64,000 bases of DNA from Streptomyces sp. 7-21. Its GTDB lineage: Bacteria > Actinomycetota > Actinomycetes > Streptomycetales > Streptomycetaceae. Below, piece after piece: positions 1 through 17,991 of the stretch (the first letter of the stretch is position 1; every line of letters begins with the position of its first letter). A model generated the notes under the pieces. It was not told the DNA's origin. It was given only the letters and a program-made list of their open reading frames with translations, and did not search any database. The stretch covers positions 1 through 64,000 of the forward strand of contig NZ_JAERRL010000018.1 of NCBI RefSeq assembly GCF_016741785.1. The letters are read 5' to 3'. The position numbers and the translations under genes are program-made.

Positions 1-1827
1 GGCGTTGTCGTCGGCCGTGTCCACGACCGGTGCCGCCCGGCGCGCTGCCGCCCCGGCGCCGCTGTCGTCCACCACGTGACCGGCCTCATCGACCCGCACC
101 ACCCGCCCGGAGAAGTCCTCTCCCGCGCCGGGGCCGCACACGGTCACCTCGGGCCGCGTCTCACCGAGCACCAGCGCCACCCGCTCCCGGGGCCACGCCG
201 TGTCCACCGGCACATACGTCCCGCCCGCCCGCCAGACCGCGAGGAGGGACACCACCCAGGCCGGGCCGCGGTCCATGACGACCGCCACTCTGCGTTCCGG
301 TTCTACTCCCAGCGCCGCCAGCACCCCGGCCAGCGCGCCGGCGCGCTCCCACAGTTCCGCGTACGTCAGTTCGGTCTCCTCGCCGCCGACGAAACCGACG
401 ACGGCGGGCGCGTCAGGCGTCTCACGGGCCCACGCCTCCACGCGCCGCACCACGGAGCCGCGCCGCGTGCCGGGGTCGCCCGTGCCCCATCCGAGGACCC
501 GCTCGGCCTGCGCGGGCTCTGCGGGCTGCAGCTTGGCCAGGGGCACGCCGGGGTCACGGGCCACGGCCTGGAGGGTGTGGAGCAGGGTGGCGTGGACCGA
601 CTGGGCCCAGGCGCGGTCGTACCGGCGCGTGTTCGGCTCCAGCTCCACCGACAGCCCCTGGCTGCCGGGCCGCGCGCCGACGAGCACGCTGAACTCCTCG
701 ACCCGCCGCAGCGATACGTCCTTGATGACGGCCGGGCTGTCGCCTAAGCGCAGCACCTCGCCGGACTGGACGATGTTGACGAACGGCCCGAAGTACCAGC
801 GGTCGCCGTGAGGCCAGCCCAGGTCGGTGCGCAGCCGCTCGCCCCGGTAGCGCTGGTGGCGCATCAGACCGTCGACTTCGCGGGCGGCCTGCCGGACGAG
901 GTCGGCGAAGCTCATGTCGCCGGACACCCGCAGCCGCAGCGGCAGCACGTTCGCCATCTGGAAGGGCGTGCGGCGCGCCAGCGAGGTGGTGCGGCTCGCG
1001 ACGGGCAGGCTGAGCGTCACCTCGGGCGCAGCTGTCAGGTGGGACGTGAGCAGGGCCGCTCCGGCCACGATCAGCCGCGGCCAGCTCACGCCAATATCCC
1101 GGGCCAGCTGGAAGAGGGCGGTGACGTTCTCCGGCGGGAGGTGTCCCGCGCTGCGCAGGACCAGCGCGTTCTCACCGGTGGTGGCGGGCTGGCCGGGGGC
1201 GGCGACCAGTTCCGGGTGGTCGCCGAAGCGGTTGAGCCAGTACTGCCTGTCGGCCTCGTGGCGGCCCGAGCCGTGGTAGTCGCGCTCCTCGGCGAGCGCC
1301 TCGCGGAGGCTGCCGAACGCCTGGCGCGGCGCGGTCCCGCGCAGTGCCGCGGTGTAGTGCTCGGCGGTGCGCCGCGCCATCAGCGTGCAGCCGAAGCCGT
1401 CCATGATGAGGTGGTCGTAGCGCTGGTACCAGATCCAGCGCTGGTCCGCGAGGCGGAACAGTGCGAAGGAGAAGAGCGGTTCGTCGTCCCGTGTCCGCTC
1501 GCGGTCGAGGTCGGCGCGCATCCAGGCCTCCGCCGCGGCGAACGGTCCGTCCTCGCCGCGCAGGTCGAGCACGGGCAGGTCCCACTCGGCGGGGGCGTGG
1601 ACCTGCCAGACCTCGTCTCCCGCTTCGACGAACCGGACGTGCAGGGCCTCCGCCTCCGCGACCGTCGCCCGCAGCGCCCGTTCGAAGGCCGCGGGGTCGA
1701 CCCGGCCGGTGATGTCGAGGTACTGCGCGACCTTGTACTGCCGGCGGGTGCCTTCCACCCGCTGCGCCAGCCAGATGCCGGACTGAGATTCAGACAACGG
1801 TAGACGCCAGTTGGCCGTGCTGGTCAT
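1..1827 (-). CDS. Non-ribosomal peptide synthetase, C-A (N-terminal part, cut by the left edge)
   Basis: These are the first 609 codons of a non-ribosomal peptide synthetase read leftwards out of the window. A condensation domain covers about residues 8-435. It opens with an LSESQSGIW-type motif and has DHLIMDG at 138-144, where the first His of the usual HHxxxDG is Asp but the second, catalytic His is kept. An adenylation domain begins near residue 460 (motifs LTYAEL and AGGTYVPVD) and is cut before its core P-loop, so its amino acid cannot be predicted. The start at 1827 is preceded by GGGGGAAAAG; an ATG four codons upstream (1839) is possible. It lies 42 bp behind the ABC exporter gene and is probably in its operon. 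A leading C domain means a later subunit of the assembly line or an acyl-starting one. Confidence 0.93.
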   Translation of the reverse strand, partial: MTSTANWRLPLSESQSGIWLAQRVEGTRRQYKVAQYLDITGRVDPAAFERALRATVAEAEALHVRFVEAGDEVWQVHAPAEWDLPVLDLRGEDGPFAAAEAWMRADLDRERTRDDEPLFSFALFRLADQRWIWYQRYDHLIMDGFGCTLMARRTAEHYTAALRGTAPRQAFGSLREALAEERDYHGSGRHEADRQYWLNRFGDHPELVAAPGQPATTGENALVLRSAGHLPPENVTALFQLARDIGVSWPRLIVAGAALLTSHLTAAPEVTLSLPVASRTTSLARRTPFQMANVLPLRLRVSGDMSFADLVRQAAREVDGLMRHQRYRGERLRTDLGWPHGDRWYFGPFVNIVQSGEVLRLGDSPAVIKDVSLRRVEEFSVLVGARPGSQGLSVELEPNTRRYDRAWAQSVHATLLHTLQAVARDPGVPLAKLQPAEPAQAERVLGWGTGDPGTRRGSVVRRVEAWARETPDAPAVVGFVGGEETELTYAELWERAGALAGVLAALGVEPERRVAVVMDRGPAWVVSLLAVWRAGGTYVPVDTAWPRERVALVLGETRPEVTVCGPGAGEDFSGRVVRVDEAGHVVDDSGAGAAARRAAPVVDTADDNA

Positions 1828-1869
1828 CTTTTCCCCCATGGTGGCCGGAAGTAGCGGTGAGGGCTGCTG

Positions 1870-3864
1870 TCAGCGGTCGGTGCCGTGGCGGGCGACGGGG
1901 ACGATGCCGCCCTGCCGGGGCAGCCCGTCCGTTGCTCCGCCGGGATCGGGGCGGCGCGGTGTCCCCTCCCCGGCCGGCGGCTCCTGCGGGGCGAACTGCG
2001 TGCGGTACAGCTCGGCGTAGAGGCCGTCGTGGGCGAGGAGTTCCTCGTGGGTGCCGCGTTCGCGGACGGTTCCGCCGTCGATGACGAGGATCTGGTCGGC
2101 CTCGCGGATGGTGGAGAGCCGGTGCGCGATGACGACGGAGGTACGGCCGGCGAGCGCCGCGCTCAGCGCCTGCTGGATGGCCGCCTCGGACTCCGAGTCG
2201 AGGTGTGCGGTCGCCTCGTCGAGCACGACGACCGAGGGCTTCTTCAGCAGGAGCCGCGCGACGGCGAGGCGCTGCTTCTCGCCTCCGGAGAGGCGGAAGC
2301 CGCGGTCGCCGACGACGGTGTCGAGGCCGCTGGGGAGGGACTCGATCAGGTCCCAGATCTGGGCGGCCCGGCACGCTTCGATCAGCTCCTCGTCGCTCGC
2401 CTCCGGCCGGGCGTAGGTGAGGTTGCCGCGGATGGTGTCGTGGAAGAGGTGGGCGTCCTGGGTGACGACGCCGATGGTGCCGCGCAGCGACTCCAGGGTG
2501 ACGTCGCGCAGGTCGTGGCCGTCGATGCGGACGCTGCCCGCCGTCGGGTCGTAGAGACGGGTGATGAGGTGGGTGATGGTGGTCTTGCCCGCGCCGGAGG
2601 GGCCGACGAGGGCGGTGAGCTTGCCGGCGGAGGCCAGGAAGCTGATGTCGGTGAGGACGTACGGGGGGTCCTGGGTGCGCTCGCCCGCGGCACGCTTGAT
2701 GGCTTCCAGGGAGGGCAGCGACACGTCGCTCGGCTTCGGGTAGCGGAACGCCACGCCGTCGAACTCGATGGCGGGGGCGGAGCCGTCGGCTCGCGCGGGC
2801 AGCGGCACGGCATTGGGCTTTTCCTGGATGAGCGGCTTCAGGTCGAGAATCTCGAAGACGCGGTCGAAGCTGACCAGCGCGGTCAGCGCGTGCCCCTGCA
2901 CGCTCGCGAGCTGCGTGATCGGGGCGTAGAGGCGGCCGAGCAAGGCAGCGAGAGCAACCAGCGTGCCGATCTGGAAGCTGTCGTCGATGACCATCGTGCC
3001 GCCCAGGCCGTAGACGAGAGCCGTGACCAGGGTGGCGAGCAGCGTCATCAGGATGAACAGCAGGCGGTTGTAGACCGCCCACCTGACGCCGATGTCCCGG
3101 ACCCGGCCGGCGCCTCTGGCGAAGGTCTCGGCCTCCTCCCGCGGGCGGCCGAAGAGCTTGGCGAGGATGGCGCCGCCGACGTTGAAGCGCTCGTTGATGG
3201 TGCCGGCCAGTTCGGCGTTGACCTGCATCTGCTGGCGGGAGTAGCGCTGGACCCTGCGGCCGATGACCACGGACGGGATGGCGAGCAGCGGGAGGACCAC
3301 GAGAGAGAGGGAACTGAGGACCCAGGAGAGATAGAACATCTCGGTCAGCACCAGCACCAGCGTGAAGACGCTGGACAAGGACATCAGCACGGTGCCGAGC
3401 GCCTGCTGCGCAGCCATCACGTCGGCGTTGAGCCGGCTGACGAGCGAGCCGGTCTGGGTGCGGGTGAAGAAGGCCAGCGGCTGCTTCTGGACGTGGGCGA
3501 ACGCCTTCACCCTCAGGTCGTAGGTGAGTTCCTGGCCTATCCGGGCGGAGAAGTAGGCCTGCCCGAGCTGGGTGAGGCCATCGACCAAGGCCAGTCCCGC
3601 GACGAGGAGGGCCATCGAGACGACGAGCCCTTTGTCTCCCCGCATCACGCCGTCATCAATGATCTCCCTGAGAATGAGTGGTATGGCGACGACGACGAAC
3701 GACCCGATGACGGTGGTGAAAAGGAGAAAGATAAGCAGGCGCCGGTGAGGCCGTGCGTAACGCAGCACCCGGCCGATCGTTCCCGGCGTGAGGCGCTGCT
3801 TTGTCAGGGAATTCTCGGGGGCCCCGATGACGCTCACCATGGGACCTGAGCCTTGCAAGCTCAT
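1870..3864 (-). CDS. ABC exporter, fused membrane and ATPase domains (peptide export)
   Basis: This is a half-transporter of 664 residues with an N-terminal six-helix exporter domain (about residues 35-330) and a C-terminal ATPase. The Walker A motif GPSGAGKT is at 421-428, the signature LSGGEKQR at 525-532, and the Walker B Asp-Glu at 549-550, followed by ATAHLD. It should work as a homodimer in the membrane. It lies directly upstream of the NRPS gene in the same direction, as exporters do in glycopeptide clusters (Tba-type), so export of the peptide product and self-protection are the likely roles; the substrate is inferred from context only. The C-terminal 45 residues after the ATPase are Pro/Gly-rich and probably disordered. 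Confidence 0.92.
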   Translation of the reverse strand: MSLQGSGPMVSVIGAPENSLTKQRLTPGTIGRVLRYARPHRRLLIFLLFTTVIGSFVVVAIPLILREIIDDGVMRGDKGLVVSMALLVAGLALVDGLTQLGQAYFSARIGQELTYDLRVKAFAHVQKQPLAFFTRTQTGSLVSRLNADVMAAQQALGTVLMSLSSVFTLVLVLTEMFYLSWVLSSLSLVVLPLLAIPSVVIGRRVQRYSRQQMQVNAELAGTINERFNVGGAILAKLFGRPREEAETFARGAGRVRDIGVRWAVYNRLLFILMTLLATLVTALVYGLGGTMVIDDSFQIGTLVALAALLGRLYAPITQLASVQGHALTALVSFDRVFEILDLKPLIQEKPNAVPLPARADGSAPAIEFDGVAFRYPKPSDVSLPSLEAIKRAAGERTQDPPYVLTDISFLASAGKLTALVGPSGAGKTTITHLITRLYDPTAGSVRIDGHDLRDVTLESLRGTIGVVTQDAHLFHDTIRGNLTYARPEASDEELIEACRAAQIWDLIESLPSGLDTVVGDRGFRLSGGEKQRLAVARLLLKKPSVVVLDEATAHLDSESEAAIQQALSAALAGRTSVVIAHRLSTIREADQILVIDGGTVRERGTHEELLAHDGLYAELYRTQFAPQEPPAGEGTPRRPDPGGATDGLPRQGGIVPVARHGTDR

Positions 3865-4080
3865 GTCGCAGAAACCTCCCTGCTAGGGATTTCCCAGAGG
3901 TGCCGGCGGGGGCCCGCCACCCCCATTCTCAAGGCAGCACGCGCTCAGCCCACGACGTACGACGATACTCACGGAGCCGCCGTCAAACCAGGCACCCAAG
4001 CCGCGCTTCGAGCAAGCTTGACATGGCTTTTTCCTGGGATGCCGGCGGATGAATAGAAGCAAAAATACCCGGAAATGCGG

Positions 4081-4112
4081 CGGCCGGCCGGCTCTCGGGA
4101 GCCGGCCGGCCG
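4081..4112 (-). terminator. Hairpin terminator after hmaS
   Basis: A perfect 14-bp stem (arms 4081-4094 and 4099-4112, loop TCGG) lies 32 bp past the hmaS stop codon. It has no T-run, which is common for Streptomyces terminators. Confidence 0.7.
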
Positions 4113-4143
4113 CGGGGGCGGAGCCGCTGTCCGGTGCGCGCCG

Positions 4144-5223
4144 TCAGGGGCGGTCACCGCCCTCCGCGGCCCGCTGCCGCTCGACAGCCTCGTAGAGGGC
4201 CTTGATGTTGTTGCTGCCGAAGCTGCGGGCGCCTCTGCGGTCGATCAGCTCGTAGAAGAGGGTGCGGCGGGGGTGCCGGGAGCGCGTGAAGATCTGGAGC
4301 ATGACGCCCCAGTAGTCGCGGTCGGCCAGGATGTGGAGTTCCCTGAGCGTGTCCAGGGGGACGCTGACCGGGCCGAGACGGCCGGGCAGGGCGTCGTAGT
4401 AGCTGGCCGGGGTGGTCAGGAAGCTGACGCCCCGATCGGTGCAGGTGCGCACGGCGGTGGCGATGTCCTCGGTAAGGAAGGCCAGGTGCTGCACGCCGGC
4501 GCCGCCGTGGCTGCTGATGAACTCGTCGATCTGGCCCGGGGCCCGGGTGGTGTCCGGCTCGATGATGGTGAGGGTGACGGCGCCCGACGCGCTCTGCACC
4601 ACCTTGGAGTCCATGGCCTGCTCACCGACGATGATCTGCTCCTCGAAGGTCTCGGCGAAGCCGAAGACCTCCTGGTAGCGGCGGACGGTCTCGGTGAGCT
4701 CGCCGGGGGGCACGCACACCGCCAGGTGGTCGATGACGCGGAACAGCCCGGCGGAGCCGGCCGCCGGGGTGGTCTCCTCGATGAGACCGGGCGCGAAGCG
4801 GGTGCCGCGGCGCGAGACGAACCGGTTCTCCACGTCGCCGAAGGCCGTCACGGAGGCCATGGTGACGCGGGTGTCGCCGTCCTGCAGCACGCGCGGCGGC
4901 GAGACCGGCTCGGCGCCGCGCTCGACGGCCTCGGCGAACGCCGCTTCGGCGTCGTCGACGGTGACACCGATGGCGGCGACGCCGTCGCCGTGCCGCCGCA
5001 CGTAGTCGGCCGCGCGGTGGCCGCCGGCGGGGGCGGAGGTGACCAGCAGGGTGATGTCGCGCTGCCGCAGCAGGAGGGACGTGGGAGGGGTGGTGCCCGT
5101 GGTGTCACCGGCGGCCGTGCCGCGGCCGTGGACCGCGAAGCCGAATGACTCACACAGGTACTTGGACGCTTCTTCCGCGTCCTCTACGTAGAGTTCGACG
5201 TGGTCGATGGTGCGGATTTCCAT
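4144..5223 (-). CDS. hmaS: 4-hydroxymandelate synthase (Hpg biosynthesis)
   Basis: The enzyme is a non-haem iron dioxygenase that turns 4-hydroxyphenylpyruvate into 4-hydroxymandelate, the first committed step to 4-hydroxyphenylglycine. It has 359 residues and two VOC-type halves. The iron ligands are H166, H246 and E325. It is closest to its paralogue HPPD, but the stretch VVQSASGAVTLTIIEP (209-223) and the end FGSNNIKALYEAVE match the glycopeptide HmaS enzymes as I remember them, where HPPD has a PLNE-type motif and GKGNFKALFE. The start at 5223 keeps the full N-terminal domain. A StrR-type operator lies 106-134 bp upstream, and the StrR-like regulator gene follows further upstream. Neighbouring NRPS and DAHP synthase genes fit an Hpg pathway; the oxidase and aminotransferase of that pathway are not in the window. 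Confidence 0.87.
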   Translation of the reverse strand: MEIRTIDHVELYVEDAEEASKYLCESFGFAVHGRGTAAGDTTGTTPPTSLLLRQRDITLLVTSAPAGGHRAADYVRRHGDGVAAIGVTVDDAEAAFAEAVERGAEPVSPPRVLQDGDTRVTMASVTAFGDVENRFVSRRGTRFAPGLIEETTPAAGSAGLFRVIDHLAVCVPPGELTETVRRYQEVFGFAETFEEQIIVGEQAMDSKVVQSASGAVTLTIIEPDTTRAPGQIDEFISSHGGAGVQHLAFLTEDIATAVRTCTDRGVSFLTTPASYYDALPGRLGPVSVPLDTLRELHILADRDYWGVMLQIFTRSRHPRRTLFYELIDRRGARSFGSNNIKALYEAVERQRAAEGGDRP

Positions 5224-5328
5224 GGCATTACCTTCGCGTGCGCCGTGGTCGTCTCGTCCTGCGCCTCGTGCCGCGGGCTGCCGCCCTCCCCTTTTTCATG
5301 ATCCGGTGTTTCGGGCGGGCGTTTCCTC

Positions 5329-5357
5329 GTCCAACCGGTGGAGACCAGCACTTGGAC
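5329..5357. promoter_or_regulatory. StrR/Bbr-type activator site, GTCCAA-N17-TTGGAC
   Basis: A perfect inverted repeat has half-sites GTCCAA (5329-5334) and TTGGAC (5352-5357) separated by exactly 17 bp. It extends to 7 bp per arm (CGTCCAA/TTGGACG). It matches the GTCCAR-N17-YTGGAC consensus I recall for Bbr and Dbv4, the StrR-like activators of balhimycin and A40926. It lies upstream of hmaS and close to a gene for such a regulator. Confidence 0.8.
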
Positions 5358-5407
5358 GGGGCGGATGGCCGTGGACCAAGGCCCAAGCGGCATAGGGGTT
5401 TTCTGTT

Positions 5408-5489
5408 CCGATGCTGGCACCAGCGCCGCTCCGGGTCGAGCCCGCCCAGGCGTCTTCCCCGGACAGGCGGGCGCCGGCGCCAGCATCGG
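5408..5489 (-). terminator. Long stem-loop after the StrR-like gene
   Basis: A perfect 11-bp pair (5408-5418 with 5479-5489, starting CCGATGCTGGC) encloses a second 7-bp stem (GCCCGCC with GGCGGGC). It begins 8 bp past the stop codon of the regulator gene, so termination is the simplest role. Confidence 0.55.
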
Positions 5490-5497
5490 CGGCCGCG

Positions 5498-6493
5498 CTA
5501 CGCCAGATAGGCCATGTCAGCGGCGCGCAGTTCCGTTCGCGCCGCGAATTCGTTCCAGATTTCTGCGCATTCTCTCGCCAGCTGGGCGACGATACTGCTG
5601 CAGTGCGGCGGGACGTTGTCGATGATCTTGTCCCACTCCTCGGCCCGTATGGTCAGGACGTTGAGCAGCCGGAGCAGATGACGTCCGGTCTCGGAGAAGC
5701 GGAGCGCCGGATCGGCACGCAGGCGCTCGAGAACAGCCGCACGGTCCTGGGCCGACGCCTGCGCTGGCCCGGGACCGCCGCCTATCTCGGCCGGTCTGCC
5801 CGGCTGCGGGTGGTGGTCGGCCGCCTGGCTTCTCTTGCGTCTGCTCGGCAGGGGGTCCTCTCCCCGGCGCAGCCGGTTCCTGACGTCCCGTGCCGTCTCC
5901 GGCGAGATGCCGGCGGCCCGGGCGATCTGGCGCAGCGACAGGCTGGGGTCGGACGCGATCAGCTGCGAGGCCAGCAGGCGGCCGCGGGTGCCGTCGACGG
6001 GACGTGCCCTGCCGTCCTGGCCGATCCGCACGTTCCCGCTGTCCGATCCCCGGGTCACCCGCTGGCGTATCTCCGCCACCGTCGCCGCCGCGATGCCGGT
6101 CACCGAGGCGACCATGCGGTCGGACCACTCCGGGTGCGAGGCGACGATGCGCGCCGCCGCGTGCTTCCGGTCCGCCAGGGACAGCGGAAGTCCGTGCATG
6201 ATGTTCGATTTGACCGCCAGCACGAAGGCGTTGGCCTCATCCCCGTCGAAGAACCTGACTGCGATCTTGTCCTGCCCCCGGAGCTGGGCGACTCGTAACC
6301 GGTGCAGGCCGTCGATCACGCGCATCGTCGCGCGATGCACGATGATGGGCGGAAGCTGGTTCTGCGCCGCGGCGAGTGCCTCCACGTGCTCCGAGTTTTC
6401 CCCGGAAATCCGAGGCGAGTCAGCGACCTTGAGCAATCTGACGTCGACCTCGCATACCGGTTCGTGCTCGATATCCCCTCGTCCAGGTTCCAC
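5498..6493 (-). CDS. StrR/Bbr-family ParB-like pathway-specific activator
   Basis: This protein of 331 residues has the ParB/sulfiredoxin-like N-terminal fold of StrR-type regulators: SPRISGENSEHVEALA at 26-41, LPPIIVHRATMRVIDGLHRL at 47-66, and HGLPLSLADR at 100-109. Two predicted helix-turn-helix units follow, near 124-147 and 185-210 (SLRQIARAAGISPETARDV). Members of the family activate secondary-metabolite clusters (StrR, NovG, Bbr, Tei15*, Dbv4). Here it sits between the cold-shock gene (16 bp upstream, same strand) and hmaS, whose promoter region carries a matching operator, so it is likely the activator of this NRPS cluster. The long Pro/Arg-rich linker near 212-240 is typical of the group. 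Confidence 0.9.
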   Translation of the reverse strand: MEPGRGDIEHEPVCEVDVRLLKVADSPRISGENSEHVEALAAAQNQLPPIIVHRATMRVIDGLHRLRVAQLRGQDKIAVRFFDGDEANAFVLAVKSNIMHGLPLSLADRKHAAARIVASHPEWSDRMVASVTGIAAATVAEIRQRVTRGSDSGNVRIGQDGRARPVDGTRGRLLASQLIASDPSLSLRQIARAAGISPETARDVRNRLRRGEDPLPSRRKRSQAADHHPQPGRPAEIGGGPGPAQASAQDRAAVLERLRADPALRFSETGRHLLRLLNVLTIRAEEWDKIIDNVPPHCSSIVAQLARECAEIWNEFAARTELRAADMAYLA

Positions 6494-6509
6494 TCCAGCT
6501 CCTCACGAC

Positions 6510-6953
6510 TCAGGTATCAACCCATCCACGCTTCTTGGCGAAATCCAGCAGGCTGTGCCGGATCTCCACCAGCTGCCCCCCGGTCAGGCTGGGTACTGCC
6601 TCCAGGAGAAGTTCGGTGACCTCGCTCCTGAACTCGCCCTGAGACAAGACGTCACACATCCCCGTCTCCTCTGACGAAGCCGCTGCCGAATCGGCCGTGT
6701 CCGGCTCCCGGCGATGCACCGGAACGGGGACTTCCGCCTTGGTGGTTTCCTCGTCGAGCAGGTGCGCAGCGAATGCCTTCCTGCCTCGCCCTCCTGCCAT
6801 GACCTGGAATTCGACGCGTGCGCCGGGCACCAGGTCACTGGGGTCACCGTCGAAGACCGAGGTGTGCAGGAACACGTCCTCACCGCCGTCATCGGCACCG
6901 ATGAACCCGAAGCCGCGCATCTCGTCAAACTGCAGGATCCTGCCCGTAGCCAA
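6510..6953 (-). CDS. Cold-shock-domain protein with extra C-terminal domain
   Basis: A cold-shock domain occupies residues 1-67, with RNP1 RGFGFI at 13-18 and RNP2 VFLHTS at 27-32, so it should bind single-stranded RNA or DNA. Ordinary CspA proteins stop near residue 67. This one has 147 residues: an acidic, low-complexity linker (68-100) and a compact helical C-terminal part (about 100-147, containing VLSQGEFRSEVTELLLEAV). I do not recognise that domain. The gene is 16 bp upstream of the StrR-like regulator on the same strand and is probably co-transcribed with it. That suggests a post-transcriptional or nucleic-acid-binding role in control of the cluster, but this is inference from position. 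Confidence 0.8.
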   Translation of the reverse strand: MATGRILQFDEMRGFGFIGADDGGEDVFLHTSVFDGDPSDLVPGARVEFQVMAGGRGRKAFAAHLLDEETTKAEVPVPVHRREPDTADSAAASSEETGMCDVLSQGEFRSEVTELLLEAVPSLTGGQLVEIRHSLLDFAKKRGWVDT

Positions 6954-7337
6954 TGCCGCTCAACCTCTCCTTCAAACCGTCCACAGCCCGGCGAAACTAA
7001 CGAATTGATCCTCGCCAGGCTGACCCATACCTTAGCCGCGACGAACCCCAGCGGGTAGAGGCAATGACACACCGATACGGAAGACAGCCAGGCATTCGGT
7101 TTACAATTCCACAAGGGGTGACCACGGCAGAAGTTGGACACCGGACCCGCGTCTTTAATTTCTCAATCACCGGAGGCAACAGCAGTCACACAAGCACCGC
7201 TGACACCTCATTAGCAGCTCTTTATTAACACGGAAGAATAATTCCACTCCGACAGGCTGGAATTTTACCTTTCATTGACCGCATTGGCCGCAGAAGTGGG
7301 TGCCGGAGAGGGAAGAAAGTATCGTCGCTGCCGCGCC
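6954..7337. other. AT-richer intergenic region upstream of the cold-shock/StrR pair
   Basis: This 384-bp gap is clearly less GC-rich than its surroundings, especially about 7000-7280. It must hold the promoter for the leftward cold-shock/regulator pair and the 3' end of the DAHP synthase transcript. I found no gene and no second GTCCAA-N17-TTGGAC site. An isolated TTGGAC half-site is present at 7134-7139. Confidence 0.6.
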
Positions 7338-8381
7338 TCAGCCGACTCCGGCTGGTTCCGCCGCCGGCGTCAGGCTGCGCCCCATCACCGGCGACAGGAC
7401 CGCCGCGGCGCGGGCCACCTCGCGCAGGTCGGCATCGACCAGGGCCTGGTCACCGTCGCACAGCGCGGTCTCGGGGCTTGGGTGCACGTCGATCAGCACG
7501 CCGTCCGCGCCCGCCGCGATGGCCGCCCGCGTCAGCGGCAGCACGAGATCCCTGCGGCCGCCCGAGTGCGAGGGATCCACCACCACCGGCAGGTGCGACA
7601 GCCGCTGCGCCACCGGCACGGCGCTGATGTCGAGCGTGTTGCGCGTGGCGGTCTCGAACGTCCTGATGCCGCGCTCGCACAGCACGATGTTGAGGTTGCC
7701 GCGCTGCGCGATGTACTCGGCGGCCATCAGCCACTCCTCGACCGTGGCGCTGAAGCCGCGCTTGAGCAGCACCGGCCTGCCCGACTCGCCTACCGCCTGG
7801 AGCAGCGCGAAGTTCTGCATGTTGCGGGTGCCGACCTGCAGCATGTCGGCATAGGAGGCGACGAGGTCGACGCTGCCCGCGTCGAGCACCTCCGTCACCA
7901 CCGGCAGCCCGGTCTCCTCGCGTACCTCCGCCAGAATCCGCAGGCCCGCCTCCCCCAGCCCCTGGAAGGCGTACGGCGACGTTCGCGGCTTGTAGGCGCC
8001 GCCCCGCAGCAGCGACGCCCCCGCGGACTTCGCCATCCGCGCAGCGGCCAGAGTCTGTTCGGGCGTCTCGACGGCGCACGGCCCGGCGATGACGGTCAGC
8101 GTGCCGGGACCGATCGGCACGTCACCGACCCGGATAACGGAGCGCGCCGGATGATGCTCCCGGCTGACCAGCTTGTACGGCACGGAGATCCGCACCACGT
8201 CCACGACGCCGCGGCGGCTGCGGAGGTTCAGCGCCCCGAACTCCTCCACGTTGCCGACGAGTCCCACGATCGTGTGGGAGACCCCCCGGCTGACGAACGC
8301 TCTGGCGCCGATGGTGCGCGCCAGGCTGACTATGTCCTCCACATCCTCGTCGGTGGCCTCCGGGGCCATCACCACAACCAT
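7338..8381 (-). CDS. 3-deoxy-7-phosphoheptulonate (DAHP) synthase, type I-beta
   Basis: The enzyme condenses phosphoenolpyruvate and erythrose 4-phosphate in the first step of the shikimate pathway. The protein has 347 residues: an N-terminal ferredoxin-like regulatory domain (about 1-68) and a TIM barrel with AGPCAVET (99-106), [15 protein letters not shown] (127-141), LLKRGFSAT and DPSHSGGR. The start at 8381 has GGGAGGAG upstream, which excludes longer versions. Streptomyces normally rely on a type II DAHP synthase for primary metabolism, so this copy beside hmaS probably raises the aromatic precursor supply (chorismate to 4-hydroxyphenylpyruvate) for the peptide cluster. A primary-metabolic role cannot be excluded. 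Confidence 0.9.
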
Positions 8382-8873
8382 GGGGTGCTCCTCCCGTGAG
8401 GGGGGCCGGGCTGTCCCGGTCCGGTGGATGAACGGCGGCACCGCCAAGCTCACAGGCGGTGACGACGAGAGCCGCGGTGGCCCGTGGGGAAGAGCGCGCG
8501 CGGGTACCCGGCGTCCCGTTCGTCCCGCCGTCCCCCCACCAGCCGCCGTGACCCCGCAGTGAACGGGCACCAGACCCAGACCGGCGCCCTTTCCTGATTG
8601 AACCCCTGTTGTCACTGGTCTTTCCACGTGAGGGGAAAAGCCAGCTTTGCGCTCTCATCGTAGGAGTGCCCCGAACCGCCGACAACCGCGTCCACCCGCG
8701 GCGTCCGCCCCCGTTTCCGCGGCCACGCCGGGGACCGTCCCGGAGCGCCGGGCAACAGCGCCCGGGCGGCCCGTCAAGTCCCGGCCGCCTTCCGCCGATG
8801 TGGTGGGACGACTGGACACGTGGAGAAGGACTCCCTCTCCTGCCCGGCAGACCGGAACCGTCTCGGAGGAGCC
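8382..8873. other. Intergenic region between divergent DAHP synthase and CNNM genes
   Basis: This 492-bp gap must contain the leftward promoter of the DAHP synthase gene and the rightward promoter of the CorC-type gene. I see no convincing gene, operator or hairpin in it apart from the GGAGGA ribosome binding site at its right end. Confidence 0.5.
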
Positions 8874-8939: not shown

Positions 8940-10237
8940 CCGAGCTGCTCCTGCTGCTCACGGCGGCGCTGCTCACCCTGGCGTGCGCCGTCTTCGTCGC
9001 CGCCGAGTTCTCGCTGACGGCCGTGGAGCGCGGGGAGCTCGAACGCGCCGCCGCGGCCGGCGAACCCGGTGCGCCGGCCGCGCTGCGGGCCGCCAGGTCG
9101 CTGACCTTCCAGCTCTCCGGTGCCCAGCTCGGCATCACCGTGACGTCCCTGGTGATCGGCATGCTCGCTGAGCCCTCGCTCGCCGCCCTGCTGCGCGGGC
9201 CGCTGCGCGCCGCCGGGCTGCCCGCGGGCGCCGCCGCCTCCCTCGCGCTCACCGTGGGCGTCGCCGTCTCGACGGTGATGCTGATGGTCGTCGGCGAACT
9301 GGTGCCGAAGAACTGGGCGATCACCCGGCCGCTGCGGGTGGCCCGCGCCATCGCCCGCCCGCACCAGGCGTTCACCGCGCTGTTCGGCCCGTTCATCCGC
9401 CACCTCAACGAGACCGCCAACCGGCTGGTGCGCTACCTCGGGTTCGAGCCCACCGAGGAGCTGGCGTCGGCCCGTTCCCCGCAGGAGCTGGTGGCCCTGG
9501 CGCGGCACTCGGCCGCCGAGGGCGTGCTGCCCTCCGACTCGGCCGAGCTGTTCGTGCGCACCCTCCACCTCGGCGAGCTGACCGCGCAGAGCATCATGAC
9601 GCCCCGCGTCGACGTGCGCGCGCTGCCGCTGACCGCCACCGCCGCCGACGCGGCCCGCCTCACCCGCGAGACCGGGCTGTCCCGCTTCCCCGTCTGCGAC
9701 GGCGGCCTCGACGACATCACCGGCATCGTGCACGTGCGCGACGTGCTGGCGATCGACGAGCCGCACCGCGCCGCCACCCCGATCGGCCGCCTCGCCACCG
9801 AACCGCTGCTCGTGCCGGCCACCCTCCCCGTCGACCAGCTGCTGGAACGGCTGCACGGGCGCCGCTCGATGGCGGTCGTCGTCGACGAGTACGGCGGCAC
9901 CGCCGGGGTGGTCACGCTGGAAGACATCGTCGAGGAGGTCGTCGGCGAGGTCAGCGACGAGCACGACCCGGCCGAGCCGCCGGGCCTGGTCCGCACCGGG
10001 CCCGCCACCTGGGAGGCCGACGGGGCGGTGCGGACCGACCAGCTCGCCGGGCTCGGCATGGACGTGCCCGGCGGGCCCTACGAGACGCTGGCCGGTCTGA
10101 TCGCCACGGTGCTCGCCCGGATCCCCGTTCCGGGCGACAGCGTGGAGATCGCGGGCTGGCGGCTGACCGTCCTGGTCACCGCCCGCCACCGGGCCGCGCG
10201 GGTGCGGCTGACGGCGCCGCCGGACGCCGGGCGGTGA
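8933..10237 (+). CDS. CNNM/CorC (HlyC)-family membrane protein with CBS pair
   Basis: This protein of 434 residues has the DUF21/CNNM membrane domain (about 1-190, three or four hydrophobic segments, the first at 2-24, with AAEFSLTAVERGELE and VVGELVPKNWA), then two CBS domains (about 200-325, including SIMTPRVDV and VVDEYGGTAGVVTLEDIVEEVVGE split across the pair), and a C-terminal CorC_HlyC transporter-associated domain. The family is linked to Mg2+/Co2+ efflux and ion homeostasis. The start at 8933 is chosen because the membrane domain begins there. It overlaps a small leader ORF that supplies the ribosome binding site. Confidence 0.9.
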   Translation: MLTELLLLLTAALLTLACAVFVAAEFSLTAVERGELERAAAAGEPGAPAALRAARSLTFQLSGAQLGITVTSLVIGMLAEPSLAALLRGPLRAAGLPAGAAASLALTVGVAVSTVMLMVVGELVPKNWAITRPLRVARAIARPHQAFTALFGPFIRHLNETANRLVRYLGFEPTEELASARSPQELVALARHSAAEGVLPSDSAELFVRTLHLGELTAQSIMTPRVDVRALPLTATAADAARLTRETGLSRFPVCDGGLDDITGIVHVRDVLAIDEPHRAATPIGRLATEPLLVPATLPVDQLLERLHGRRSMAVVVDEYGGTAGVVTLEDIVEEVVGEVSDEHDPAEPPGLVRTGPATWEADGAVRTDQLAGLGMDVPGGPYETLAGLIATVLARIPVPGDSVEIAGWRLTVLVTARHRAARVRLTAPPDAGR

Positions 10238-13487: not shown

Positions 13488-13612
13488 CGGACGCTCCTTA
13501 CCGCTGGCCGTCACGTTCGTGTCACGCCGTGTCACCCGTCGTGGTCACCACGGCGTGCCGCCGGGCGGGTACCCGCCGGGCCGCATTCGGCACGTGGCGG
13601 CCGCCGGCGGGC

Positions 13613-15043
13613 TCAGCCCTTGACGACGCCGAGCGGGACGAGCCGGGCGACCGTGCGGCACAGGCCCGCGCCCTGGCTGGCGGCCACGACCTCGTCGATG
13701 TCCTTGTAGGCGGCGGGCGCCTCCTCGGCGAGGCCCCGGCCGGTCCCGGCGCGGACGACGACCCCCGCCCTGGCCAGCTCACGGCGCAGGCGGCCGCCGT
13801 CGGTCTCACGCGCCGCCTGGTGGCGGCTGCGGACGCGGCCCGCGCCGTGGCAGGTGGAGTGCCAGGCGCCGCCGTCCGGGGTGCCGGTCAGCACGTAGGA
13901 GGCGGTGCCCATGGTGCCGGGGATGAGGACGGGCTGGCCGGTGTCCGCCAGGTCAGGCGGCAGGCCGGGGGCGCCCGGAGGCAGGGCGCGGGTGGCGCCC
14001 TTGCGGTGGACGCACAGGCGCCGGGGGACGCCGTCCACCTGGTGGGTCTCCATCGTCGCGAGGTTGTGGGAGACGTCGTAGACCAGGTCCAGGGCGGTGC
14101 CGGCGGTCGTCTCGAAGGCGCGCCGGGCGGCCTCGGCGAGCAGCTGGCGGTTGGCCCGGGCGTAGTTCGCGGCGGCGGCCATGGCAGCGGCGTAGTCGCG
14201 GCCCTCGGGCGAGTCGGCGGGGACGCTGGCGAGCTGCCGGTCGGGGACCGTGATGCCGTAGCGGCGCATGGCGGCGTCCATGGTGCGGACGTGGTCGGTG
14301 CAGATCTGGTGGCCCAGGCCGCGCGAGCCGCAGTGGAGCATGACGCAGACCTGGCGTTCCCGCAGCCCCATGGCGCGGGCGGCGGCGTCGTCGTAGACGG
14401 CGTCCACGGCCTGGACCTCCAGGAAGTGGTTGCCGGAGCCGAGGCTGCCGAGCTGGCCGAGGCCGCGTGCGCGGGCCCGGTCGCTCAGCTGCCCGGCGCC
14501 GGCGCCGGGCAGCATGCCCTCGTCCTCGCAGCGGGTGAGGTCGCGCGGCACGCCGTGGCCGCGTTCGACGGCGTAGCGGGCGCCGCCGGTGAGGACGTCG
14601 CCGAGCTGGGAGCGGCTCAGGTGCCAGACGGCGCCGCGCCCGGCGCCGCGCGGGATGGCGCGGCCCAGGGCGTCCATGAGGGGTTCCAGGTGCGGGGCGA
14701 GGTCGTCGCGGTCGCAGCGGGCCGCCAGCAGGCGCACCCCGCAGGAGATGTCGAAGCCGACGCCGCCGGGCGAGATCACGCCCCCGGTGTCCACGTCGGT
14801 GGCCGCGACGCCGCCGATGGGGAAGCCGTAGCCCCAGTGCACGTCCGGCATGGCGTACGAGGCGCCGGTGATGCCGGGGAGCTCGGCGACCGCGGCGACC
14901 TGGGCGAGCGCCTGGTCGCCGGCGGCTTCGGGCAGCAGCGACGGGCTGGCGAACACGATGCCGGGCACGCGCATCGCGCCGCGGCGCGGGATCCGGTAGC
15001 GGCAGGGCCCGTCCGGGATGATCTCTGCGGCGGTCTGGGTCAC
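13613..15043 (-). CDS. rtcB: RtcB RNA-splicing ligase
   Basis: RtcB joins RNA 2',3'-cyclic phosphate and 5'-OH ends using GTP and manganese. The protein has 476 residues with the family motifs [17 protein letters not shown] near 65-81, [12 protein letters not shown] with the metal-binding Cys, [20 protein letters not shown] and, near the C-terminus, [12 protein letters not shown], the region of the guanylated His. GTG at 15043 is chosen because GGAGG lies 8 bp upstream; longer versions add low-complexity residues only. The archease gene is directly upstream (32 bp) on the same strand. Archease speeds RtcB guanylation, so the pair is a functional unit. Confidence 0.93.
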
Positions 15044-15075
15044 GGTGTGCCTCCGCTGTCGTGGCGGGTGTGCCG

Positions 15076-15525
15076 TCACACGTCGAGCGTCACCGCGCAC
15101 GTCCAGCGCGCGCCGTCACAGCGCAGCGACAGGCCGTGCAGCGTCACCGCTTTGGGGACGGCGCCGGTCAGCGGCAGCCGGTCCGCCTCGGCCATGAAGA
15201 GGCGGGCGTGCACGCCGCCGGGGGCGGCGTCGATCCGGACGTCCACGGGGATCTCGCCGTCGGTGTCGAGCCGGTAGACGATCTCGTCCATGAGGGCGGC
15301 CAGCAGGTCGTCGTCGCTGCCGGCGGTCACGGTGGCCTGGCGGGTGCGGACCGGGCGGGCGGCCGAGGTGTCGGCGAACGACGCCACGACGCCGTGCACC
15401 GCCCGCGCCAGGCACTCCTCGCGGGTGGGTGCCCAGGCCTCGACCCGCAGGTCGGCGGTGTGCGGGACGGCGCGGTAGCCGCTCGCGGTCTGGGAGCCGC
15501 CGGTGTCGCTTGCCATCTCTTCCAT
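15076..15525 (-). CDS. Archease (RtcB activator)
   Basis: This small acidic protein of about 149 residues has archease hallmarks: [17 protein letters not shown] near the start (His and Asp of the metal site), [32 protein letters not shown], and a C-terminal VTLHGLSL. Archease promotes guanylation and turnover of RtcB. ATG at 15525 is used; ATG at 15516 (MASD) is equally possible because neither has a strong ribosome binding site. It is followed after 32 bp by rtcB and is divergent from the 2'-5' RNA ligase gene. Confidence 0.88.
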
Positions 15526-15587
15526 GCTCGCGCGGGCCGGCGCGGCCCGCAGCCGCGCGGCGGGCGGCGCGGGCGGAGAATCGGGGC

Positions 15588-16157
15588 ATGAGACTGTTCG
15601 CCGCGGTCGTCCCCCCGGCCGGTGCGCGCGGTGAGCTGGCGCGCGCCCTCGCACCGGTGCGGGCGCTGCCCGGCGCCGGCCGGCTGCGGTGGGCGGACCC
15701 GGCGGGGTGGCACGTGGCGCTGGCGTTCTACGGGGAGGTCGGCGAGGCCGTGGTGCCCGCACTGCGGGAGCGGCTGGCGCGCGCGGCGCGCCGCTGCCCG
15801 CCGCACCGGCTGCGGCTGGCGGGCGGCGGGCGGTTCGGGCAGCGCGTGCTGTGGGCCGGGGTGGAGGGCGAGACCGGGACGCTGGCACGCCTGGCGGGCG
15901 CGGCGGAGGCGGCCGGGCGCCGGTCGGGGGCCGGGGGCGGGGAGCGCCGCGGGTACCAGCCGCACCTGACGCTGGCGCGGGCCCGGCGGGACGGGGCGGA
16001 CCTGGCGCCGTTCGCCACGGCGCTGTCCGGCTTCGCGGGCGGGGCGTGGACGGTGGCGGAGTTCCGCCTGCTGCACAGCGTCCCGCCGCCGGCGGACGCT
16101 CCCCCGGGGACGCGCCCCCGGTACGAGACGGCCGGGGTCTGGCCGCTGACGGGCTGA
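15588..16157 (+). CDS. thpR: RNA 2',3'-cyclic phosphodiesterase / 2'-5' RNA ligase family
   Basis: This protein of 189 residues belongs to the 2H phosphoesterase superfamily. It starts MRLFAAVVPP and has two HxT/V-type catalytic motifs, HVALAF near 42 and HLTLAR near 128. ThpR/LigT proteins open 2',3'-cyclic phosphate ends on RNA or handle 2'-5' linkages. The 62-bp gap to the archease gene on the other strand is a shared divergent promoter, which places it in the same RNA-end repair group as RtcB. The start at 15588 gives the canonical N-terminus. Confidence 0.88.
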   Translation: MRLFAAVVPPAGARGELARALAPVRALPGAGRLRWADPAGWHVALAFYGEVGEAVVPALRERLARAARRCPPHRLRLAGGGRFGQRVLWAGVEGETGTLARLAGAAEAAGRRSGAGGGERRGYQPHLTLARARRDGADLAPFATALSGFAGGAWTVAEFRLLHSVPPPADAPPGTRPRYETAGVWPLTG

Positions 16158-16392
16158 ACGGACCCGCGGCTGTCTGGTCATCTTCTGGACGGACCCGGGC
16201 ATCATCGGGCGCGCTGTCCTGCCGTGACGGGGCGCTGAGCACCGCCTTGCCTCACCCACGTGACGACGGCGCACCCCCGCGGTCACCGTTGCCTGGCGGC
16301 GCGGTCTTGCCGCCTCTCCGCCCGCGCTGCTTAGGTGGCGTGCACTGAAACGCCGCACAACGCTGCGATGCCGGCTTCCCGAGAGGACACCG

Positions 16393-17991
16393 ATGTCTGC
16401 TGGGCCAGTGACCGGCCGGGCGCTGTCCCGGCGCGCGCTGCTGCGCCGCGCGGGCCTCGGCGGCGCGGCGGCCCTGACCGCCGCGGGCCTGCCCGGCTGC
16501 ACCCTGGTGGCGCGTCAGGTCGGCGAGCGCTCCGGCGGCAGCCGCCGCGGCGGCAGGCTGCTGCTCGCCCAGGCCGAGGACGTGAACTTCGCGACGTTCC
16601 GTCAGCAGAACACCGTCAACGCCCTCTGGCAGCGGCTGGTGTTCAACACGCTGACGGTCTACGACCACGCCACGCTGCGCCCCCGCCCGTCCCTCGCCAC
16701 CGGCTGGGAGGTGCGCGACGGCGGCCGGACCGTCGTCTTCCGGCTCCGTGACGACGTCCGCTTCCACTCCGGGCGCCCGTTCGGGCCCGAGGATGTGGTG
16801 GCGAACATCCGCTGGCAGGCCAGCGAGGAGGGCGCGCCCGGACAGCTGCGGTCCACGGCCGCCGCCGTCACCGACGCCGAAGCCACCGGGCCGCACGAGG
16901 TGACGCTGCGCCTGGCGCACGGCGTGAGCAATTTCTTCGACCTGTGCGAGATCATGTTCATCGCCGACCATGAGACGCTGGCCGAGCTGGAGACCGGCAG
17001 CGTCCTCAACGGCACCGGCCCGTTCGTCTTCACGGACTACAGCCCCGGCGTGTCGATGTCCTTCCGCCGCAACCCCCGCTACTGGAAGCCGGGCCGCCCC
17101 TACCTGGACGAGGCCGAGCTGCGGGTGGTCGGCGAGCAGCAGGCCATCGTGGCGGCGCTCCAGAGCGGCCAGACGCACCTGGGCTTCCAGCTCAACGGCA
17201 GCCACCTGCACAACGTGCGGGCCGACGAGCGCCTGACCGTGCACGAGCTGGACACCAGCGACTACGGCCACTACCTCGGCTGCAACCTGGCGGTCGAGCC
17301 ACTGGACGACCGGCGGGTCCGCCAGGCCATCGCCTACGCCGTGGACCGCGACAAGATCCTGCGCATGGTCGTCGACGGCGTCGGCCGCACCGCCTCCAGC
17401 CCGTGGACGCCGTCCAACCCCGCCTACGACGAGGACGCCGCCCGCCACTACCGGCACGACCCCGCCCGTGCCCGCGCCCTGCTCCGCGAGGCCGGCGTCA
17501 CCGGCGCCCGGCTGGAGCTGGCGGTCCGCTCCAGCGAACCGGGCGGCGACCGCTCCACCGCCGAGATCGTGCAGGACGGGCTGCGCGCGATCGGCCTTGA
17601 CGTGGAGATCACGGTGTTCCAGCCCGCTGACTTCCAGAACCGGCTGAGCACCGCGAACCTGCCGGGCCTGTGGGTCGCCGGCCACGGCTTCGGCCAGCTC
17701 AACCCCGCCACGCTGCTGAACGGCGCGTTCCCCTTCAACGCCCATGCCAATGCCTCGAACTTCGTCAGCGAGCGGTACCGGCGCCTGGCGGACGAGGCGT
17801 GGAAAGCCACCGGCGAGGCCGAGGCCGCGCGGGCCTACCGCGAGGTGACGCAGCTGCTGCTGCGGGAGCAGTTCGTCATCGACCTGGTGAGCAGCGCCCA
17901 GTCGTTCGTCTTCTCGGACGCGCTGCGCGGCATCGGCTACACGATGTTCAACAACCTGGACCTGGACGACGCCTACCTGGCCGAGGAGTGA
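16393..17991 (+). CDS. Oligopeptide/dipeptide ABC transporter substrate-binding lipoprotein
   Basis: This family 5 extracellular solute-binding protein has 532 residues. The N-terminus has two twin-arginine pairs (13-14 and 18-19) before a hydrophobic core and a lipobox LPGC with Cys36, so it is probably a Tat-exported lipoprotein. The body carries the family pattern VFRLRDDVRFHSGRPFGPEDVV near 115-137 and a typical C-terminal lobe. It heads an operon with two permeases and a fused ATPase, all rightward and tightly spaced. The substrate is probably short peptides, nickel or another small ligand; the adjacent proline iminopeptidase favours peptides. Confidence 0.92.
   Translation: MSAGPVTGRALSRRALLRRAGLGGAAALTAAGLPGCTLVARQVGERSGGSRRGGRLLLAQAEDVNFATFRQQNTVNALWQRLVFNTLTVYDHATLRPRPSLATGWEVRDGGRTVVFRLRDDVRFHSGRPFGPEDVVANIRWQASEEGAPGQLRSTAAAVTDAEATGPHEVTLRLAHGVSNFFDLCEIMFIADHETLAELETGSVLNGTGPFVFTDYSPGVSMSFRRNPRYWKPGRPYLDEAELRVVGEQQAIVAALQSGQTHLGFQLNGSHLHNVRADERLTVHELDTSDYGHYLGCNLAVEPLDDRRVRQAIAYAVDRDKILRMVVDGVGRTASSPWTPSNPAYDEDAARHYRHDPARARALLREAGVTGARLELAVRSSEPGGDRSTAEIVQDGLRAIGLDVEITVFQPADFQNRLSTANLPGLWVAGHGFGQLNPATLLNGAFPFNAHANASNFVSERYRRLADEAWKATGEAEAARAYREVTQLLLREQFVIDLVSSAQSFVFSDALRGIGYTMFNNLDLDDAYLAEE

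Follow-up and report, generated by a model that had tools for sequence, protein, structure and literature searches.

For the balhimycin and A40926 clusters, the accessible part of the published work gives both the operator consensus of the activators Bbr and Dbv4, GTCCAR-N17-TTGGAC, and its role, with two site-bearing regions in the dbv cluster and five in the balhimycin cluster, including that of bbr itself (PMC6022936). The StrR-type protein AoStrR1 of norvancomycin biosynthesis binds the hmaS promoter by EMSA, with eight promoters bound in the part of that report available (PMC7852140), and overexpressing strR together with lmbU increased a type V product 4.7- to 6.5-fold, according to the accessible text of PMC7567792. 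Here we describe a locus near the start of a 64-kb window (the whole stretch of DNA analysed) that has the Bbr/Dbv4 consensus and likewise encodes a StrR-type activator within the cluster, with a single site region that does not precede strR. We consider it very probable that the palindrome at 5329–5357 is the operator of this activator, that it serves to activate hmaS, and that both belong to a complestatin-type (type V) glycopeptide-like cluster split over contigs C10, C17 and C13.

The predicted operator and its probable activator

The window scan places GTCCAACCGGTGGAGACCAGCACTTGGAC at 5329–5357 as an exact, strand-neutral GTCCAA-N17-TTGGAC of 29 bases with a 17-base spacer, a predicted StrR/Bbr-type operator, just as the sequence-only reading had reported a perfect inverted repeat. 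It is the sole match with up to two mismatches in the 64-kb window and sits in the 274-bp intergenic gap between the strR-type gene and an hmaS-like gene, 140 bp behind the strR stop; the start codon of the hmaS-like gene is 105 bp downstream of the site. The degenerate pattern GTCCAR-N17-YTGGAC matches only here in the whole 4.81-Mb, 58-contig genome, but its reversed control also matches once, so uniqueness alone proves little; loosening the pattern to GTCCA and TGGAC adds one match, on contig C34. Under a mononucleotide model, exact matches are expected 0.0008 times per window, 0.06 times per 4.81 Mb and 3e-6 times in the intergenic gap, the shuffle expectation of 0.92 per window applying to matches with up to two mismatches and not to the exact one.

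The same half-sites recur at a preferred distance around other StrR genes. Across 64 named loci that encode a StrR homologue, some of them close relatives of each other, exact half-site pairs were counted at all 37 spacers from 4 to 40: there were 46 at N17, 6 at N16, 1 at N18 and 1 each at N26, N32, N33 and N34, against 0.02 expected per spacer. Forty-three of the 46 N17 sites are distinct; at least one exact N17 pair occurs in 33 of the 64 loci and none in the other 31. Both this peak and the published N17 consensus (PMC6022936, accessible part) agree with the spacing that the sequence-only reading gave for Bbr and Dbv4 sites. Among 150 genomes around that of the window, 63 have a StrR homologue and 15 an exact site. 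The site is present in 11 of the 12 genomes with a close homologue (best E under 1e-100), or 10 of 11 once the window's own genome is removed, compared with 3 of 51 with a weaker homologue and 1 of 87 with none (close-homologue genomes versus the rest, Fisher p 1e-12). This tally is per genome, and in one of them (G014) sites and StrR gene are on separate contigs. The reversed control pattern appears in 14 of the 150 genomes, once each. The single exception among the close-homologue genomes, G001, carries a site with one mismatch next to its StrR gene. Seven loci, the window included, have a window-type hmaS as the gene directly after strR; in five of them the intervening gap contains the palindrome (four at N17, one at N16), and the gaps in L071 and L107 have no exact one. 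The comparison shows that the predicted operator grammar, half-sites with a spacer of 16–17, applies near many StrR genes, whose loci often include Hpg genes.

Further sites, which the sequence-only reading had proposed to scan for, did not turn up in the genome under the pattern GTCCAR-N17-YTGGAC. A search for N17 operators with up to two mismatches gave none in the first 20 kb of C13 or in C17, and one with a position weight matrix (PWM) gave no additional operator in the same 20 kb, in C17 or in the window; the canonical hmaS–hmo pair on C13 has no operator by either method in that stretch. What was seen are a half-site, GTCCAACC, at position 5002 of C13, between the antiporter and halogenase genes, and, where an autoregulation site upstream of strR was sought, the half-site TTGGAC at 7134, upstream of a cold-shock gene. 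Low site numbers are shared by relatives: in the 80 kb fetched, G047 has three exact sites, and one apiece is seen in G036, G049 and G069. Within one of its NRPS genes, G036 also carries an N16 variant that differs by a single letter, and the rest of the genome adds one exact site in G036 and one in G069.

The gene beside the site, at 5498–6493 on the minus strand, is an open, full-length frame for a protein of 331 amino acids that is homologous over most of its length, at 43–66% identity, to 36 aligned proteins, in a comparison confined to homologues of the 64 named loci, of which 36 are represented. Matches to HpgT, halogenase or HmaS are present in many loci of these homologues. StrR-type activators typically combine a ParB-like N domain with a helix-turn-helix (HTH). 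Pfam gives only a sub-threshold HTH match for this protein and NCBIfam a chance-level one; its predicted structure (pLDDT 82.9) finds Noc, ParB and KorB as best PDB matches (E about 1e-5), with a whole-chain TM of just 0.2–0.3, and by this model the protein carries the ParB-like N domain and the HTH. Its earlier naming as a StrR-family activator is borne out by these comparisons.

Sixteen base pairs upstream of strR on the same strand lies a gene for a cold-shock-domain protein (6510–6953, minus strand; PF00313) with a conserved C-terminal tail. Homologues with 43–58% identity occur near StrR genes at four other places (L054, which is in G014, L087, L118 and L121), with operators roughly 100–145 bp upstream of the cold-shock gene in L118 (exact) and L121 (one mismatch). 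A literature search listed nothing plainly on a pairing of cold-shock gene and strR.

Two hmaS-like genes in a cluster probably divided by the assembly

The gene downstream of the site, at 4144–5223 on the minus strand, was called a 4-hydroxymandelate synthase gene in the sequence-only reading, and the alignments point the same way. Its product scores 303 bits against PDB 2r5v and 300 bits against 3zgj, which we take to be mandelate synthases, and 224 bits against the 4-hydroxyphenylpyruvate dioxygenase (HPPD) 1t47. At the position of the 1t47 Asn, presumably diagnostic for HmaS versus HPPD, it has Ile, as does 2r5v. Assignment as an HPPD is less likely by alignment, although the NCBIfam 4HPPD model still passes its cut-off (350 bits over 277). 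By these scores the product stands nearer to the HmaS structures than to that of HPPD, and it is a putative maker of hydroxymandelate.

A second HmaS gene lies on contig C13 (locus L036) at 13563–14648, with 406 bits to 2r5v. The two are 43–45% identical and probably belong to one cluster; a search of the genome for a third HPPD/HmaS gene gave only a weak match on C1. In the HmaS tree, the window protein falls in its own clade of 8 of the 27 rows (support 100/98), which excludes 2r5v and the C13 copy, making it the non-canonical one of the two for a glycopeptide cluster; the named StrR loci supplied the other seven rows of the clade, as they did most rows in the tree. The extremely long branch of L082 carries no weight in this reading, and 1t47 and 3zgj are long branches of unsure placement. 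Both HmaS types are also carried by L103, from Actinoplanes cyaneus.

Beyond hmaS, after a 279-bp gap, the window continues with an ABC exporter gene (1870–3864, minus strand; ABC_membrane and ABC_tran), 57–69% identical to the exporter in many StrR loci and 32–39% identical in three, and with the 5′ part of the first NRPS gene (1–1839, minus strand). In Pfam terms the latter encodes a condensation-type starter domain and a partial adenylation (A) domain before being cut by the contig end, and it is 41% identical to the first NRPS gene of G036. On the other side of strR lies a DAHP synthase gene for aromatic precursor supply (7338–8381, minus strand; PF00793), whose best NCBIfam match, BagF/FevY, scores 580 bits, below the model cut-off of 700. 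The sequence-only reading had taken the left edge of the window for the cluster border. We reject this because position 1 of the window is base 1 of contig C10, within the C-A fragment of the NRPS gene, and further parts of the cluster probably lie on C13 and C17. A border beyond the DAHP synthase gene, on its right, is more likely, and that gene may be the last of the cluster in this direction.

C13 encodes the end of an NRPS, T-X-(A remnant)-TE, with the X domain (motif HRIAADE) before the TE in the last module, and an AMP-binding search of the contig matched that A-domain remnant alone. It also carries genes for MbtH, an antiporter, a halogenase, a ferredoxin, an HpgT-like aminotransferase, prephenate dehydrogenase, Hmo and two P450s, both with OxyB structures as best PDB matches. 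The Hpg oxidase and aminotransferase, MbtH and P450 genes that the sequence-only reading had proposed to seek are therefore present in the same genome. A free-standing carrier protein is encoded at 9355–9639 of C13, between the ferredoxin and HpgT-like genes. Beside the canonical hmaS, at 14818–17476 on the minus strand of C13, is a histidine kinase and response regulator pair that is perhaps VanRS-like, a guess on our part.

The entire 5368-base contig C17 (L037) is an NRPS piece, C-A-T-C plus a partial A domain, following an apparent E-domain end. Across C10, C13 and C17 a single A domain was recovered complete, the one here, with the code DAYFWGATYK (last K assumed), which does not read as Hpg and could possibly specify an aliphatic residue; the remaining NRPS is missing from the assembly. 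The same code is found in none of the 14 of G036 and G049. Those two genomes, whose NRPS genes look complete, have seven codes each, and by the general rules of A-domain code reading (tenth letter assumed) five are Hpg-like, one is Trp-like and one Tyr-like. For the Dpg pathway, a genome search gave a single weak PF00195 match, on C9. C10, C17 and C13 are probably one cluster split by the assembly; the link is made by synteny and by the presence of all four condensation-type domains of the genome on these contigs, not by an assembled join. The genome itself measures 4.81 Mb at 99.96% completeness, and the 90 same-genus genomes compared with it 5.5–12.1 Mb.

What the site is likely to control

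In the arrangement that we favour, the activator encoded at 5498–6493 would bind both half-sites as a dimer and recruit RNA polymerase to a promoter just downstream, between the site and hmaS. The hmaS-like gene would thereby be switched on and supply hydroxymandelate for Hpg, and transcription may also run on into the exporter and NRPS genes that follow. A possible −10 hexamer, GATCAT (5298–5303, minus strand), 25 bases from the operator edge, is a weak candidate, since it occurs in none of the 104 flanks of relatives' operators. A different −10-like element lies 24–25 bases beyond the operator edge, always on one side, at 15 of the 52 relatives' operators (N16 and N17 together; 0.003 expected, an optimistic figure because the pattern was defined after seeing those flanks; the 15 include several close relatives), and it is absent at the window operator. 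No sigma-70-type promoter match was obtained in 3800–8700, and TANNNT gave no clear peak behind the operators. Two hairpins, neither with a T-run nor reported by the terminator scan, flank hmaS on the minus strand. One, a strong hairpin and possible terminator at 5408–5489 (−67 kcal/mol, z −4.3), sits just behind the strR stop, between strR and the operator. The other, inverted repeat I3 at 4080–4113, has a 15-bp perfect stem behind hmaS and is a possible terminator or attenuator, the fold of 3995–4150 as a whole being not unusual (z only −1.4). Given this perfect stem, hmaS may be its own transcript.

Other accounts of the site differ in what they make of these surroundings. The main target could instead be the exporter–NRPS operon, hmaS having in this lineage been inserted between operator and exporter, with one promoter serving the row. 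All genes from strR through the NRPS gene point in the same direction, and strR adjoins the exporter, with the site in the gap and no hmaS match there, in G036, G049, L069 (S. rimosus), L070 and L072. We nevertheless find this possibility rather doubtful: the 279-bp gap with its 15-bp perfect hairpin parts hmaS from the exporter, and the strR–site–hmaS layout is also found in L082, L099 and L103. Even less likely, and offered tentatively, is an extension of the hmaS-directed reading, in which strR, one operator and the StrR-associated hmaS form a portable precursor-supply switch that gates Hpg supply while the canonical hmaS–hmo pair and the tailoring genes run without the activator. It is suggested by the fact that the only operator found precedes the non-canonical second hmaS, enclosed by the two hairpins.

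That the palindrome is a relic of a circuit decayed in a 4.8-Mb genome, where the site no longer matters, would fit its single copy and the absence of a site from the canonical hmaS–hmo pair and, at up to two mismatches or by PWM, from the first 20 kb of C13. Yet both half-sites are intact though the spacer sequence differs from those in the StrR loci listed, strR is open and full-length, and G036 and G049 likewise show one exact site in 80 kb, all of which makes decay improbable. Chance similarity, with no StrR-type binding, could draw on the single genome match of the reversed control and on the 31 StrR loci without an exact N17 site; set against the position of the palindrome, the spacer peak and the genome-level association, we give it hardly any credence. 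Activation of hmaS by the StrR-type protein is thus the reading we retain, and as a whole the earlier interpretation is partly supported.

Comparison with known systems

An assembly-broken glycopeptide-like cluster can thus be recognised in a small genome. The operator grammar, comprising half-sites, a spacer of 16–17 and, in some cases, a −10-like element 24–25 bases further along, offers a simple handle for finding and waking such clusters, and with two hmaS genes and one site, the question of precursor supply alone as a control point becomes testable.

The likeness to the AoStrR1 regulon consists of a StrR-type protein and an hmaS promoter, bound there by EMSA (accessible part of PMC7852140) and in the window a predicted target. 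The norvancomycin cluster is of the vancomycin family, whereas the tree places the window hmaS in a clade apart from 2r5v, the canonical glycopeptide HmaS. Closer comparators are complestatin-type, or type V, clusters: G036 and G049, and, in the available parts of the reports, GP6738 (PMC7567792) and kistamicin (PMC6565677), whose X-domain motif HRxxxDE is matched by HRIAADE on C13. The order strR–site–exporter–NRPS–antiporter–halogenase–P450 in G036 and G049 resembles that of the window and C13 taken together. A second P450 gene stands beside the first here and in G049 and would fall beyond the fetched stretch in G036; the starter condensation domain is found here and in G036, not in G049. 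Unlike both, the window cluster has a second hmaS between site and exporter, and the free carrier protein is a feature of it too. Searches of open-licence papers, not aimed exactly at such a cluster, listed no report of one with one site and two hmaS genes. The circuit is already known, and the window is a further case within the known StrR control scheme, with a few twists of its own.
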